Below are positions 55,572-61,258 of a stretch of DNA of 64,000 bases, piece after piece (position 1 is the first letter of the stretch; each line of letters opens with the position of its first letter). The notes beneath the pieces were generated by a model, which was not told the DNA's origin, did not search any database, and worked only from the letters and a program-made list of their open reading frames with translations. Both the position numbers and the translations under genes were made by a program. Source of the DNA: Rhodothermus marinus (lineage in GTDB: Bacteria > Bacteroidota > Rhodothermia > Rhodothermales > Rhodothermaceae); NCBI RefSeq assembly GCF_009936275.1, contig NZ_AP019797.1:1479501-1543500 (forward strand), in the 5' to 3' direction.

Positions 55572-56882
55572 ATGAGTGCTCCGGAGCCCATCCGTTTTGT
55601 CAGCACGCGCGGGAAGGCGCCCGCCCTGACGTTCGACGAAGCCCTGTTGCAGGGGCTGGCGTCTGACGGTGGCCTCTACATCCCGGAGCGTGTTCCGCAA
55701 CTGCCATCCACCGTCTGGCGCGCGGCCCGCTCGTTTCCCGAGATGGCCGCCGAGGTGCTGGCGCGCTGGCTGCAGGGCGTTTTTCCGGAGGAAACGGTGT
55801 CCCGGGTAACGGCCGAGGCGCTTTCGTTCCCGGTACCGCTCGTGCCGCTGGGCGACGGCCTTTACGTGCTGGAGCTTTTCCACGGGCCGACGCTTTCGTT
55901 CAAGGACTTTGGCGCCCGCACCATGGCCCGCTTTGCCCGTGAGGTGCTGCGCCGGCGAGAGGAGCGCCTGCTGGTGCTGGTGGCCACGTCGGGCGATACG
56001 GGCAGCGCCGTGGCCGATGGCTTCGCCGGACTGGAGCGCGTGCAGGTAGGCCTGCTCTATCCCTACGGCCAGGTCAGTCCCGTGCAGGAGCGCCAGCTCA
56101 TCGTGCAACGGCCGGGCGTGCAGGCCTTCGCCGTGCACGGCACGTTCGACGACTGCCAGCGGCTGGTCAAATCGGCCTTCGCCGATCCGGACTTTTCCCG
56201 CGTGCGGCTCTCTTCGGCCAACTCGATCAACGTGGGACGCCTGCTGCCGCAAATGCTCTACTACATCTGGGCCGTGGCCGAGGGCGGGTTCGACGAAGTG
56301 GTCTTCTGCGTGCCCAGCGGCAACCTGGGCAACCTGACCGGCGGGGTGCTGGCCGCACTGAGCGGGTTACCCGTGCGGCGTTTCATTGCCGCCCACAACG
56401 CGAACGACTTCTTCCCGCGCTTTCTGGCGGGAGAGGGACCGGCCTTCGGGCCATCGCGACGCACGCTGTCGAATGCCATGGACGTGGGCGCGCCGAGCAA
56501 CTTCGAACGGTTGCAGGCGCTGCTGGGCGCGTCCATGCCCGAGCGCATCTGGGGCACGAGCGTATCGGACAAAGAAACGCTGCAGACCATCCGGCGGGTG
56601 TACGAGACGACCGGCTACCTGGCCGATCCGCATACGGCCGTGGGGCTGGAGGCGGCCCGCCGCTACCGGGAGGCCACAGGTGATCGGGCACCACTCGTGG
56701 TGCTGGCTACGGCCCACCCGGCCAAGTTTCCCGAAGTGATCCGCCAGGCGCTGGATTTCGAGCCGGAGGCGCCCGAGGCGCTGGCACGGCTCTGGAAGCA
56801 GGAAGTTTCTGTGGTTCATGTCGAAGCCGATCTGGAGGCCTTGAAAGCGCACCTGTTGCCTCATGTGGCTGCCGGGGCGTGA
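55572..56882 (+). CDS. thrC: Threonine synthase
   Basis: ThrC converts O-phosphohomoserine to threonine with pyridoxal phosphate. The 436 residues contain the PLP lysine in GPTLSFKDFGARTMARF, VATSGDTGSAVADGF (phosphate-binding), SSANSINVGRLLPQMLYY and VPSGNLGNLTGGVLAA. It belongs to the longer class I type seen in E. coli. ATG 55572 follows the thrB stop codon; the next gene overlaps its last 20 nt. Confidence 0.96.
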   Translation: MSAPEPIRFVSTRGKAPALTFDEALLQGLASDGGLYIPERVPQLPSTVWRAARSFPEMAAEVLARWLQGVFPEETVSRVTAEALSFPVPLVPLGDGLYVLELFHGPTLSFKDFGARTMARFAREVLRRREERLLVLVATSGDTGSAVADGFAGLERVQVGLLYPYGQVSPVQERQLIVQRPGVQAFAVHGTFDDCQRLVKSAFADPDFSRVRLSSANSINVGRLLPQMLYYIWAVAEGGFDEVVFCVPSGNLGNLTGGVLAALSGLPVRRFIAAHNANDFFPRFLAGEGPAFGPSRRTLSNAMDVGAPSNFERLQALLGASMPERIWGTSVSDKETLQTIRRVYETTGYLADPHTAVGLEAARRYREATGDRAPLVVLATAHPAKFPEVIRQALDFEPEAPEALARLWKQEVSVVHVEADLEALKAHLLPHVAAGA

Positions 56883-57591
56883 TCCGGCCGAAGTCGCACC
56901 GGAAAAGCTGACCGCGCTCGTACCACCGGTGCGCACCTTTGAGGGCTTTGCGCCCGAAGCGTTCGAGGCCCTGGCTCGTCTGAAGTCCCGTCCGCACATC
57001 GAGCAGTACCGACAGGAAAAGCCCGCGTTGCGCCGGTACGTGCAGGAGCCTTTTCGGAGGCTGCGGGACGATCTGGTGGTGAACTGGGTGCTCCCTAACG
57101 CCCTGGCACTGGAGACGGAGCGCAACGTGTTCAGTCGGTTTCTGAAGAATGACTTCGGGGCCGGTGGCTGCTATGCGCATTACTGGATGGCGTTTTACCG
57201 GCAGGGGCGGCGACGTCTGGCCGATGTGCAGCTTATCGTGAGTTTGCATGCCGATGGTTTGCGGGTGGGCGTGTATGCCGGGGAGCCGGCGCGAACGGTC
57301 TGGCGTGCGGTGCGGGCGCGTCTGCCGGAGGCCGGGGTATCGGTTCTGGGGCCGATTATTCCGTTATTGCAAGTCAAAATCTACCCGAGGAAGGGAGAAG
57401 CGCGTCTGATAGGTGGCGTGGAGGATCTGCAGCGCCTGTCGGTCCTGCTGCGTGGTGCGGAGGGTATCTGGGCGGGATGGACGTTGTCTCGAGAGGCCGT
57501 GCTGGAACGGGGAAGTGAGGTGGTGGACTGGATCCTGGAAACCTGGCGGATGGCCTGGCCCCTGTATCGTTTCTGCTGTGCGGTCAGTTGA
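56863..57591 (+). CDS. Conserved protein of unknown function, overlapping thrC
   Basis: A 242-residue soluble protein. Helical N-terminal region (FEALARLKSRPHIEQYRQEK) is followed by a mixed alpha/beta core with YAHYWMAFYRQGRRRLADVQ, then LIVSLHADGLRVGVYAG and a C-terminal helix (VVDWILETWRMAWPLYRF). The core pattern is weakly similar to DUF2461-like and McrB-N-terminal-like domains, but I cannot assign it. It overlaps thrC by 20 nt, so it is translationally coupled to threonine synthesis genes, and it converges with the next gene with an eight-base overlap. Confidence 0.65.
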   Translation: MWLPGRDPAEVAPEKLTALVPPVRTFEGFAPEAFEALARLKSRPHIEQYRQEKPALRRYVQEPFRRLRDDLVVNWVLPNALALETERNVFSRFLKNDFGAGGCYAHYWMAFYRQGRRRLADVQLIVSLHADGLRVGVYAGEPARTVWRAVRARLPEAGVSVLGPIIPLLQVKIYPRKGEARLIGGVEDLQRLSVLLRGAEGIWAGWTLSREAVLERGSEVVDWILETWRMAWPLYRFCCAVS

Positions 57592-58408
57592 GCGCGAAGG
57601 CCAGCACGTCGCCCGCGCCATCGTAGGGCAGCAGGTAGAGCGTGTCGCGATGCAAGGCCAGCCCTTCGCGCGTCAGCGGCCATCCCTGGCGGGTCCGTCC
57701 TACGGGCAGGCGATGCACTAGCCGTCGGTTTTCCAGATCGATCCAGTCGAGGACGCCCTGAAAAAGCCGGTGGTAACCGCCGCACAGCAGCAGCCGCTCG
57801 ACGAACTGGCAGTCCTGGTAGGCCACGCCGGTGGGACTGGGAAACTGCGCAAGGAGTCGACCGGAGGGGTCCCAGATGTAAAAGTGACGCGAGTCCCAGT
57901 CGGTCCCGACGAGGCGTCCTTCCGGATCGGCGGCCAGCAGGCTGATGTGTCGGGGCGCTGAGAAGCTGTGCACGACGGAAAAGTCGTCGGGGGACAGCGC
58001 GAGGATGCGGGAGGGACCGCCGGGATGGTAGGGAGCACTGGGGACCCAGAGCAGGCGTCCGTCGAAGGCGAGACCGCCGGGGTGGATGCGTTCGCCTTCG
58101 GTCAGCTCCCGGCGGAGAGTGGGGCGTCCGCTGGCGCGCGCGACGCGAAAGATCCAGCCGCGTCGTTCTCGACGATCGACGGCGGTAATGAAAAAGGCGG
58201 TGTCGGTCACGACCAGACCCTGGACGTGGTAGGCGTCGAAACGAAGGGGAAAGCGAACGGTGGGATCGGGCAGACGATGGCGTACGATCGAGGCGGGGAG
58301 CTCCGAAGAAGGCGGCGCGGAGCCCGGGGGTGCTGGCAGGGAAAGCGTGCTGAGGAGCAGCAGGATCGGTGTAAGCTGTAGCGGTCGGATCATGGCGGCT
58401 TTTTTCAT
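57584..58408 (-). CDS. Secreted beta-propeller-like protein (possibly DUF6454)
   Basis: A 274-residue exported protein. The signal peptide runs to about residue 30 (MIRPLQLTPILLLLSTLSLP). The mature part has repeated beta-blade motifs (HVQGLVVTDTAFFITAVDRR, IHPGGLAFDGRLLWVPSAPY, LLAADPEGRLVGTDWDSRHF and DPSGRLLAQF). The pattern VGRTRQGWPLTREGLALHRD and its neighbours resemble the DUF6454 secreted family as I remember it; the function is unknown. ATG 58408 is used; ATG 58393 is an alternative. Confidence 0.7.
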   Translation of the reverse strand: MKKAAMIRPLQLTPILLLLSTLSLPAPPGSAPPSSELPASIVRHRLPDPTVRFPLRFDAYHVQGLVVTDTAFFITAVDRRERRGWIFRVARASGRPTLRRELTEGERIHPGGLAFDGRLLWVPSAPYHPGGPSRILALSPDDFSVVHSFSAPRHISLLAADPEGRLVGTDWDSRHFYIWDPSGRLLAQFPSPTGVAYQDCQFVERLLLCGGYHRLFQGVLDWIDLENRRLVHRLPVGRTRQGWPLTREGLALHRDTLYLLPYDGAGDVLAFALN

Positions 58409-58564: not shown

Positions 58565-59353
58565 ATGGAACTGGTACAGACGCACATTGAACAGCCGATC
58601 GCGACGCTGACGCTCAACCGGCCGGACAAACGCAACGCGCTGAGCGGGGCGCTGGTCACGGAGCTTTCTCAGGCATTGGCCGCTGTTGCTGAGCGCGATG
58701 AGGTGCGGGTGGTGGTACTGACCGGGGCGGGCAAGGTGTTTTCGGCGGGGGCCGATCTGGCGGAGCTTTCGCGGCTTCAGGAGGCGACGGCCGAGGAGAA
58801 TCTGGCCGACTCGGAGCGCCTGGCCGCGCTGTTTCGTCAGATTGCTTATTATCCGAAGCCGCTTATTGCAAAGGTGAACGGCCATGCCATTGCCGGCGGG
58901 TGCGGGCTGGCCGTGGCCTGCGACTTCGCCATCGCGACCGCCGGCAGTAAGCTGGGCTTTACGGAGGTGCGCATCGGGTTCGTGCCGGCCATTGTGGCCA
59001 CGTTTGTGCTGCGCCGGGTGGGCGAGACCGTCGCCCGCGATCTGTTGCTGCGCGGCCGGCTCATCGAAGCGGAGGAAGCCGTGCGGCTGGGGCTGATTCA
59101 TCAGGCGGTGCCGGCCGATGTGCTGGATGCTACGGTGCAGGCACTGGCCCATGAGCTGGCCACCGAGACGAGCCCTTCGGCCGTTGCGCTGACGCGTCGT
59201 CTGCTGGCCGATCTGCCCGGCCTGAGTCTGGACGCGGCGCTGGCCTATGCCACGCGGGTCAATGCGCTGGCGCGGGGTACGGCCGACTGCAAGGCCGGCA
59301 TCCGGGCCTTTCTGGAAAAGCAGGATCCCCCCTGGCGCCAATCGTCAGGCTGA
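58565..59353 (+). CDS. Enoyl-CoA hydratase/isomerase-family protein
   Basis: A 262-residue crotonase-fold enzyme that hydrates or isomerises acyl-CoA substrates. The oxyanion-hole motifs are visible in GKVFSAGADLAEL and AIAGGCGLAVACDFAIA, and one catalytic Glu in KLGFTEVRIGFVPAIVA. The other catalytic Glu position, in GGCGLA, is Gly, as in methylglutaconyl-CoA hydratase (LiuC)-like members, so leucine or a related degradation route is possible. ATG 58565 begins the conserved MELVQTHIEQPIATLTLNRP. The squalene-synthase-like gene starts three nucleotides after the stop codon. Confidence 0.87.
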   Translation: MELVQTHIEQPIATLTLNRPDKRNALSGALVTELSQALAAVAERDEVRVVVLTGAGKVFSAGADLAELSRLQEATAEENLADSERLAALFRQIAYYPKPLIAKVNGHAIAGGCGLAVACDFAIATAGSKLGFTEVRIGFVPAIVATFVLRRVGETVARDLLLRGRLIEAEEAVRLGLIHQAVPADVLDATVQALAHELATETSPSAVALTRRLLADLPGLSLDAALAYATRVNALARGTADCKAGIRAFLEKQDPPWRQSSG

Positions 59354-59356
59354 ACC

Positions 59357-60169
59357 ATGGCGCTGATCCGCCCCTTTTACGAAAAGCCCTGGCCCGAAGC
59401 GTTGCGTCCGGCTGCCCGGGCGCTCTGGCACTGGCACCTGGCGCTCCGGCGTCCGAACGTGCCGGCCACGGAGCCGGAGGCGGTGACGGCCTTTCTGGAA
59501 GCGGAGGCCGTGCGGCTTCAGCAAGACGAGCCGATCCGGGTGGTGCCCGAGGAGGTATGGCGGGCAGCCCGGGAGGCCGCGATGCAACACGAACTGCCCG
59601 TAGAGCTACTGGCCGAGCAGGTGCGGGCGGCATGGGCCTGGGTGGCGCCGGTGCGTTTTCCGGATGCGGCCGCCCTGGAGGCGTTTCTGCAGGATTTTGC
59701 CGGGGCGCACGGGCGGCTGCTGGCCCGACTGGCCGGCGTGGGCACGCGTTTCAACGACCCTCAGGTCAACGCGCTGGCGGCCGGCTTCTTTCTGACGGAT
59801 CGGCTGACCCGGCTGCCGCGCGATCTGGCGGCCGATCGGCTGTTTATCCCGCTGGAAGATCTGGAGCGGGCCGGGGTGTCGGTGGAACTGCTGCAGCGAG
59901 GAGCCGGCCATCCGGCCGTGCGACGGTTGATCTGGAAGCAGGTGGTGCGGGCCCAGGAGGCGCTGGCGCGGGGACGCACACTGGTGCACGAACTGCCGCG
60001 GCGTTATGCCCGGGCGCTCCGGCGCGAGTGGCTGCTGGCGCTCGAAGTGCTACGCACGATCGAACGCCGCGATTACGACCTCTGGCGTGGTCCCATTCGC
60101 CTTTCCCGCTGGCAGCGCCTGCAGGTGGCCTACCAGGCCCGCTTCTCCCGTGTGGCCTTTCGGGCGTAG
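59357..60169 (+). CDS. Divergent squalene/phytoene synthase-family protein
   Basis: A 270-residue protein whose middle and C-terminal parts match the squalene/phytoene synthase fold: FPDAAALEAFLQDFAGAHGR corresponds to the V-x-R-L helix region, DRLTRLPRDLAADRLFIPLE to the second Asp motif and the L-P-x-E element, and RREWLLALEVLRTIERRDYD to the C-terminal helices. The first Asp-rich motif (D-x-x-x-D, substrate Mg site) is missing, and the second keeps only part of its acidic residues (RDLAAD). It is therefore probably not a normal head-to-head synthase. NDUFAF6-like assembly factors are a catalytically inactive branch of this family. It is coupled to the hydratase gene upstream. Confidence 0.7.
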   Translation: MALIRPFYEKPWPEALRPAARALWHWHLALRRPNVPATEPEAVTAFLEAEAVRLQQDEPIRVVPEEVWRAAREAAMQHELPVELLAEQVRAAWAWVAPVRFPDAAALEAFLQDFAGAHGRLLARLAGVGTRFNDPQVNALAAGFFLTDRLTRLPRDLAADRLFIPLEDLERAGVSVELLQRGAGHPAVRRLIWKQVVRAQEALARGRTLVHELPRRYARALRREWLLALEVLRTIERRDYDLWRGPIRLSRWQRLQVAYQARFSRVAFRA

Positions 60170-60256: not shown

Positions 60257-61258
60257 ATGACGACCTACCGGGATGCCGGCGTGGACATCGACGCCGGCGA
60301 CGAGCTGGTGCGGCGCATCAAGCCGATCGTGCGCGAGACGTTCATCCCTGGCGTTTTGACCGACATCGGCGCCTTTGGCGCCTTTTTCGAGCCGGATTTT
60401 TCGGCCTACCGGCGGCCTGTGCTGGTTTCGTCGGTGGACGGCGTGGGTACGAAACTGAAAGTCGCCTTCCTGATGAACCGGCACGACACGGTAGGACAGG
60501 ATCTGGTCAACCACTGCGTGAACGACATTGCAGTCTGCGGCGCCCGGCCCCTGTTCTTTCTCGACTATCTGGCCACCGGGCGGTTGAAGCCGGACGTGGC
60601 CGAGCAGATCATCCGCGGGTTTGCCACGGCCTGCCGGGAGAACGGCTGTGCGCTGATCGGCGGCGAGACGGCCGAAATGCCCGACTTCTATGCGGCGGAC
60701 GAGTACGACCTGGCCGGGATGATCGTGGGGGTGGTGGACCGCGATGCCATCCTTGACGGAAGTCGCGTGCAGGCGGGCGACGTGTTGATCGGACTGCCCT
60801 CGACCGGCCTCCATACGAACGGCTATTCGCTGGCCCGCAAGGTGCTCCTTAGCCACTTTTCGGTACACGACCGACCGCCTGCGCTGGAGGGCATGTCGGT
60901 GGGCGAGGCGCTGCTGGCCGTGCACCGCTCCTACCTGAAGCCGATCCGGGCCCTGATCGAGGCCGACTGCGTGCACGCGCTGGTGCATGTGACCGGCGGC
61001 GGCATTCCCGGCAACACGGCGCGCGTGGTACCCGAAGGCCTGCGCTTCGAGGTGGATTACGACGCCTGGGAGCGGCCGGCTATTTTCCGACTCATTCAGG
61101 AGCTGGGCGAGGTGCCCGAAGACGACATGCGGCGCACGTTCAACCTGGGCATCGGCCTGATTGCCATCGTACCGGGCGATCGCAAGGCCGAGGCGATGCG
61201 CACGCTGGAAGCGCTGGGCGAGCGCCCGATCGAAATTGGACGGATCGTGCCCGCCTGA
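60257..61258 (+). CDS. purM: Phosphoribosylformylglycinamidine cyclo-ligase
   Basis: PurM forms AIR from FGAM with ATP, step five of purine synthesis. The 333 residues show the family's glycine-rich signature, [74 protein letters not shown] and [17 protein letters not shown]. It stands alone; no other pur gene is in the window. ATG 60257 is chosen for the conserved MTTYRDAGV. Confidence 0.97.

Follow-up and report, generated by a model that had tools for sequence, protein, structure and literature searches.

The locus examined here raises two questions. In Rhodothermus marinus a crotonase gene is closely followed by a gene for a protein related to squalene and phytoene synthases. Do these genes form a functional pair, and what would the second protein do with its catalytic motifs missing? 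The window, meaning the whole stretch of DNA that was analysed (64,000 nucleotides), belongs to a host genome made up of a single 3.43-Mb contig.

A predicted synthase fold with altered motifs

The crotonase (enoyl-CoA hydratase/isomerase family, here called the hydratase) is encoded at 58565..59353 on the plus strand, with its ATG at 58565 and its stop at 59351-59353. The protein has 262 aa and matches Pfam ECH_1 with E=3.9e-59. The squalene/phytoene-synthase-fold gene that lacks the catalytic motifs (the synthase-like gene) lies at 59357..60169 (+), with its ATG at 59357 and its stop at 60167-60169, and encodes 270 aa matching Pfam SQS_PSY (PF00494) with E=8.7e-26. These coordinates agree with an earlier note on this DNA, which had placed the start of the second gene three nucleotides after the first. 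The next gene is purM (AIR synthase, Pfam AIRS/AIRS_C) at 60257..61258 (+). The genes belong to an old syntenic block with the order thrB-thrC-unknown-hydratase-[synthase-like]-purM-plsY-gpsA. A 242-aa protein without a Pfam match is encoded at 56863-57591 (+), with its start overlapping the end of thrC, and its relatives occupy the same position in many of the Rhodothermales loci examined. The stretch from this gene to the hydratase holds a gene for a DUF6454 family protein on the opposite strand (57584-58408, -).

The motifs were assessed by aligning 23 synthase-like orthologues with 48 HpnC, HpnD and CrtB proteins from Bacteroidota. The columns of the first motif, D-D-x-x-D, are occupied in the synthase-like protein by R31, R32, P33, N34 and V35. 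The second motif has F145 and D148 at its Q and N columns and R152 at its first D column, and D156 alone is kept. The first D-x-x-x-D is absent and the second motif mostly lost in 23/23 orthologues, whereas the 48 references keep both. The earlier note had described the D-x-x-x-D as lost and the second motif as partial, and the alignment confirms this. Other columns that are invariant in the canonical enzymes have been exchanged for conserved residues, namely Tyr for Trp24 (21/23), Gln for Phe145 (21/23) and Tyr for Phe163 (20/23). Seven residues (Pro6, Phe7, Trp193, Lys194, Gln195, Trp225 and Trp243) do not vary among the 23 orthologues, W26 is kept in 21/23, and D156, R198 and Y240 are mostly kept.

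The protein scores 91.6 bits for Pfam SQS_PSY, where the cut-off is 26. The nearest NCBIfam families are HpnC and HpnD for 23/23 orthologues, and the window protein scores 82.5 bits for HpnC against a cut-off of 250.45 and 81.4 bits for HpnD against 278.6. In a maximum-likelihood tree the synthase-like clade is monophyletic (support 100/100, stem of 2.15 changes per site) and separate from HpnC, HpnD and CrtB, with long branches that leave its exact point of attachment unsure. Among the genomes searched the clade is found only in Rhodothermales. There is a sharp gap in the Bacteroidota sample between the Rhodothermales orthologues, at E 1e-67 or better, and all other proteins, at 1e-29 and weaker. 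The closest named matches are from Rhodothermus MAGs (83-89% identity). A Streptomyces plasmid match was rejected as a clade member since its second motif is of the usual kind and it looks canonical.

A confident AF2 model built from the 23 sequences (pLDDT 92, pTM 0.90) predicts a squalene-synthase fold. PDB fold matches of the predicted model are HpnC, CrtM, LvqB4/CqsB4, YisP and human squalene synthase, with best TM-scores of about 0.6-0.78 and E<0.001 for HpnC, CrtM and human SQS. The dN/dS of the window gene against six congeners is 0.087-0.137, and the same comparison gives 0.066-0.143 for the hydratase and 0.073-0.078 for purM where computable. The synthase-like gene is under strong purifying selection and is not decaying in Rhodothermus. 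Since the motif-loss pattern is common to 23/23 orthologues and dN/dS is this low, the pattern is due neither to chance nor to decay. Judged from its motifs, the protein has very probably lost synthase catalysis, and the earlier proposal of a prenyl-synthase fold without that catalysis is supported as very probable, the fold by prediction and the loss of activity by the missing motifs. The earlier note had looked to homologues with both Asp motifs, lying in carotenoid or hopanoid clusters, as evidence against its reading; none is present in the clade.

In the hydratase the first catalytic Glu is replaced by Gly114, and the second is present as Glu134. The Gly had been pointed out in the earlier note, correctly, but the weight placed on it is not supported. 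The same Gly/Glu pattern is present in every hydratase orthologue that covers both positions and in the nearest relatives of known structure, 1UIY and 3I47. A classical enoyl-CoA hydratase has Glu at both positions, which the window protein does not, and other crotonases of the host genome do have both (C1:1993594 and C1:101168). The protein reaches no NCBIfam equivalog cut-off among the matches listed. Enoyl-CoA isomerases are among the single-Glu members of the crotonase superfamily; therefore, hydratase activity should not be assumed for the window protein.

Distribution and neighbourhood in Rhodothermales

Co-occurrence was assessed in 78 Rhodothermales genomes with a completeness of 90% or more, counting the synthase-like gene as present at E 2e-55 or better and the hydratase orthologue at E 1e-60 or better. 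The synthase-like gene occurs in 46/78 genomes and the hydratase orthologue in 50/78, with both in 27. The synthase-like gene is found without the hydratase in 19 of its 46 genomes (family f14, most of f15, and G013). In 14 genomes the hydratase occurs with nothing synthase-like other than ordinary family members, and it is accompanied by weak or partial matches in 9 further genomes, 7 of them in f4. It directly adjoins purM, with no synthase-like gene between, in G023 and several f9, f10 and f12 genomes. Family f13 has about 2.4 kb between the two genes, or has them unlinked (e.g. G330, G334), and at locus L037 a gene named aconitase-like from its sequence stands between them.

The hydratase lies within 250 nt upstream of the synthase-like gene in 14/26 loci examined. 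The most constant neighbour is purM, which is at most 155 nt downstream in 19/26 loci. In f15 the synthase-like gene overlaps both thrC and purM. The gap between hydratase and synthase-like gene is two or three bases in the genus Rhodothermus. The fixed pairing of a crotonase with a pseudo-synthase, as the earlier note had it, is contradicted by this search, with each gene present alone in whole families and the two sometimes far apart, and obligate pairing is largely refuted. Because the pairing breaks elsewhere, the three-base gap is a local feature, and the case warns that such a gap is poor evidence for joint function. At L038 the synthase-like gene looks as if it were fused in frame to purM, but this is an artefact, as the two are joined by a stretch of N. 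In G005 the synthase-like gene and purM are separated by about 3.4 kb (L033:2061-5459) containing a long open frame with repeated beta-propeller-like motifs, and in G002, G003 and G006 purM is not within 1.1-1.5 kb downstream.

Families f3, f9, f10, f12 and most of f4 have either lost the synthase-like gene or carry a highly divergent copy; therefore, they can do without its function. In f4 (e.g. L094:1056-1577) short or highly divergent synthase-like frames stand beside the hydratase, and these may represent a gene undergoing loss in that family.

The host genome has just one further SQS_PSY match, a phytoene synthase domain at the C-terminus of a 586-aa protein (L001:1420-3180, -). The long hydrophobic N-terminal part of this protein looks like a putative lycopene cyclase-type domain. 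In five draft genomes (G002, G003, G005, G006 and G027) the synthase-like gene is the sole SQS_PSY match, and a carotenoid accessory role is disfavoured because the gene persists in these drafts with no other SQS_PSY protein. A hopanoid role was rejected since no tandem HpnC/HpnD pairs appeared in a PF00494 search of 40 relatives. No terpenoid genes are adjacent to the synthase-like gene at the window locus, and at the loci examined no clade member was found next to carotenoid or hopanoid genes. The branched-chain or isoprenoid acyl-CoA route suggested in the earlier note gained no positive support.

Complex I is present in the window genome and in most relatives. A search of three large family f8 drafts (G013, G025 and G034) gave no match to NuoD or NuoH, which suggests complex I loss in this family as far as drafts can indicate.

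Discussion

The motif loss is clade-wide, the clade is monophyletic, the gene is under purifying selection and it occurs independently of the hydratase. The best explanation, to which we give a probability of about one half, is that the locus holds two separable genes, a single-Glu crotonase and an old Rhodothermales pseudoenzyme that would bind a hydrophobic ligand or a client without turnover. The helical bundle of the squalene-synthase fold is predicted to be retained, and both Mg/diphosphate-binding motifs are lost. Several polar residues of the canonical active site have become conserved hydrophobic or aromatic ones, within a new set of fixed residues. Such a protein would make neither squalene nor phytoene. 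Instead of catalysing a reaction, its helical bundle may bind a client protein or a hydrophobic ligand of isoprenoid or lipid type; this is suggested because the bundle is kept, metal and diphosphate binding is lost, the polar sites are hydrophobic or aromatic and the residue set is new. A narrower and tentative version is that the clade is a Rhodothermales-specific SQS-fold pseudoenzyme family that acts as an isoprenoid or lipid binder, or as a chaperone of a membrane client other than complex I.

A pseudoenzyme is the most economical reading of the sequence, and a different catalytic activity is possible. The protein may be a repurposed enzyme that carries out different chemistry on a prenyl diphosphate or another substrate, an alternative we put at perhaps a little below the narrower version. 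Its sequence and fold matches include YisP and the carbazole prenyltransferases LvqB4/CqsB4. Lys194 and Gln195 are among the seven invariant residues, and the clade has largely retained D156, R198 and Y240, so it could catalyse another kind of reaction on a prenyl substrate. However, the protein lacks the first metal motif and the greater part of the second, as well as the Gln, Asn, Arg and Tyr residues that are invariant in the canonical enzymes, and the neighbouring genes are not terpenoid genes. The least likely account, which we consider very improbable, is a decaying squalene synthase remnant. The gene is indeed lost or shortened in several families, as in the 174-codon frame of G009, but decay is contradicted for most of the clade by intact frames, by residues that do not vary throughout the order and by a dN/dS of about 0.1 within the genus; parts of f4 may be an exception.

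An NDUFAF6-like assembly factor for respiratory complex I, as proposed by analogy in the earlier note, is an unlikely role for the synthase-like protein. The complex I assembly factor NDUFAF6 is likewise an SQS/PSY-fold protein without DxxxD motifs (PMC8007014, PMC12470011), and the host genome and most relatives do have a complex I to assemble. However, the f8 drafts G013 and G034 keep the synthase-like gene without NuoD or NuoH, the latter at the syntenic locus, and the gene is absent from many genomes that have NuoD (e.g. G014, G015, G017, G022, G026, G035 and G036). In addition, no nuo gene was seen near the synthase-like gene. The evidence against a role specific to complex I is strong but, coming from draft genomes, not final. 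Even less probable is that the crotonase and the synthase-like protein work together as the products of a dedicated two-gene module. The short gap in Rhodothermus and the adjacency in 14 of 26 loci fit such a module, but the 19 genomes with the synthase-like gene alone, the 14 in the reverse state and the separated genes of f13 do not. The pseudoenzyme with a separable crotonase stays our preferred reading. As a small protein of a thermophilic bacterium whose conserved residues are sharply defined, it would make a good target for structure determination and ligand finding.

Comparison with known systems

The hydratase resembles the single-Glu crotonase 1UIY from Thermus, which likewise combines a Gly in place of the first catalytic Glu with an intact second one and matches the window protein with E=9.6e-62. 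For the synthase-like protein the best sequence relatives are HpnC and HpnD, and the HpnC structure 4HD1 is the top PDB match by sequence and fold. It differs from these families in missing both Asp motifs and other invariants, in forming a separate clade and in having no tandem HpnC/HpnD context. YisP, a farnesyl diphosphate phosphatase of Bacillus, is an SQS-fold protein with a non-synthase activity (PMC10148934). Its structure 3WE9 matches the synthase-like protein by sequence and fold, but the identity in the fold match is 17%.

Motif-less SQS-fold proteins are already known in mitochondria, and the synthase-like clade is a distinct bacterial one; a limited literature search found no description of it. 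The molecular role of the mitochondrial proteins is still open (PMC8007014). The likeness to NDUFAF6 lies in the SQS/PSY fold, predicted here, without DxxxD motifs; it would be common to any inactive member and is therefore weak as evidence. Human and Arabidopsis NDUFAF6 are reported to have AxxxD and A/SxxxH as replacements (PMC12470011), whereas the window protein has RRPNV and RLPRD, and its occurrence does not track complex I. If the clade is a pseudoenzyme family that binds isoprenoids or lipids, or chaperones a client other than complex I, it would be an independent bacterial parallel to NDUFAF6.
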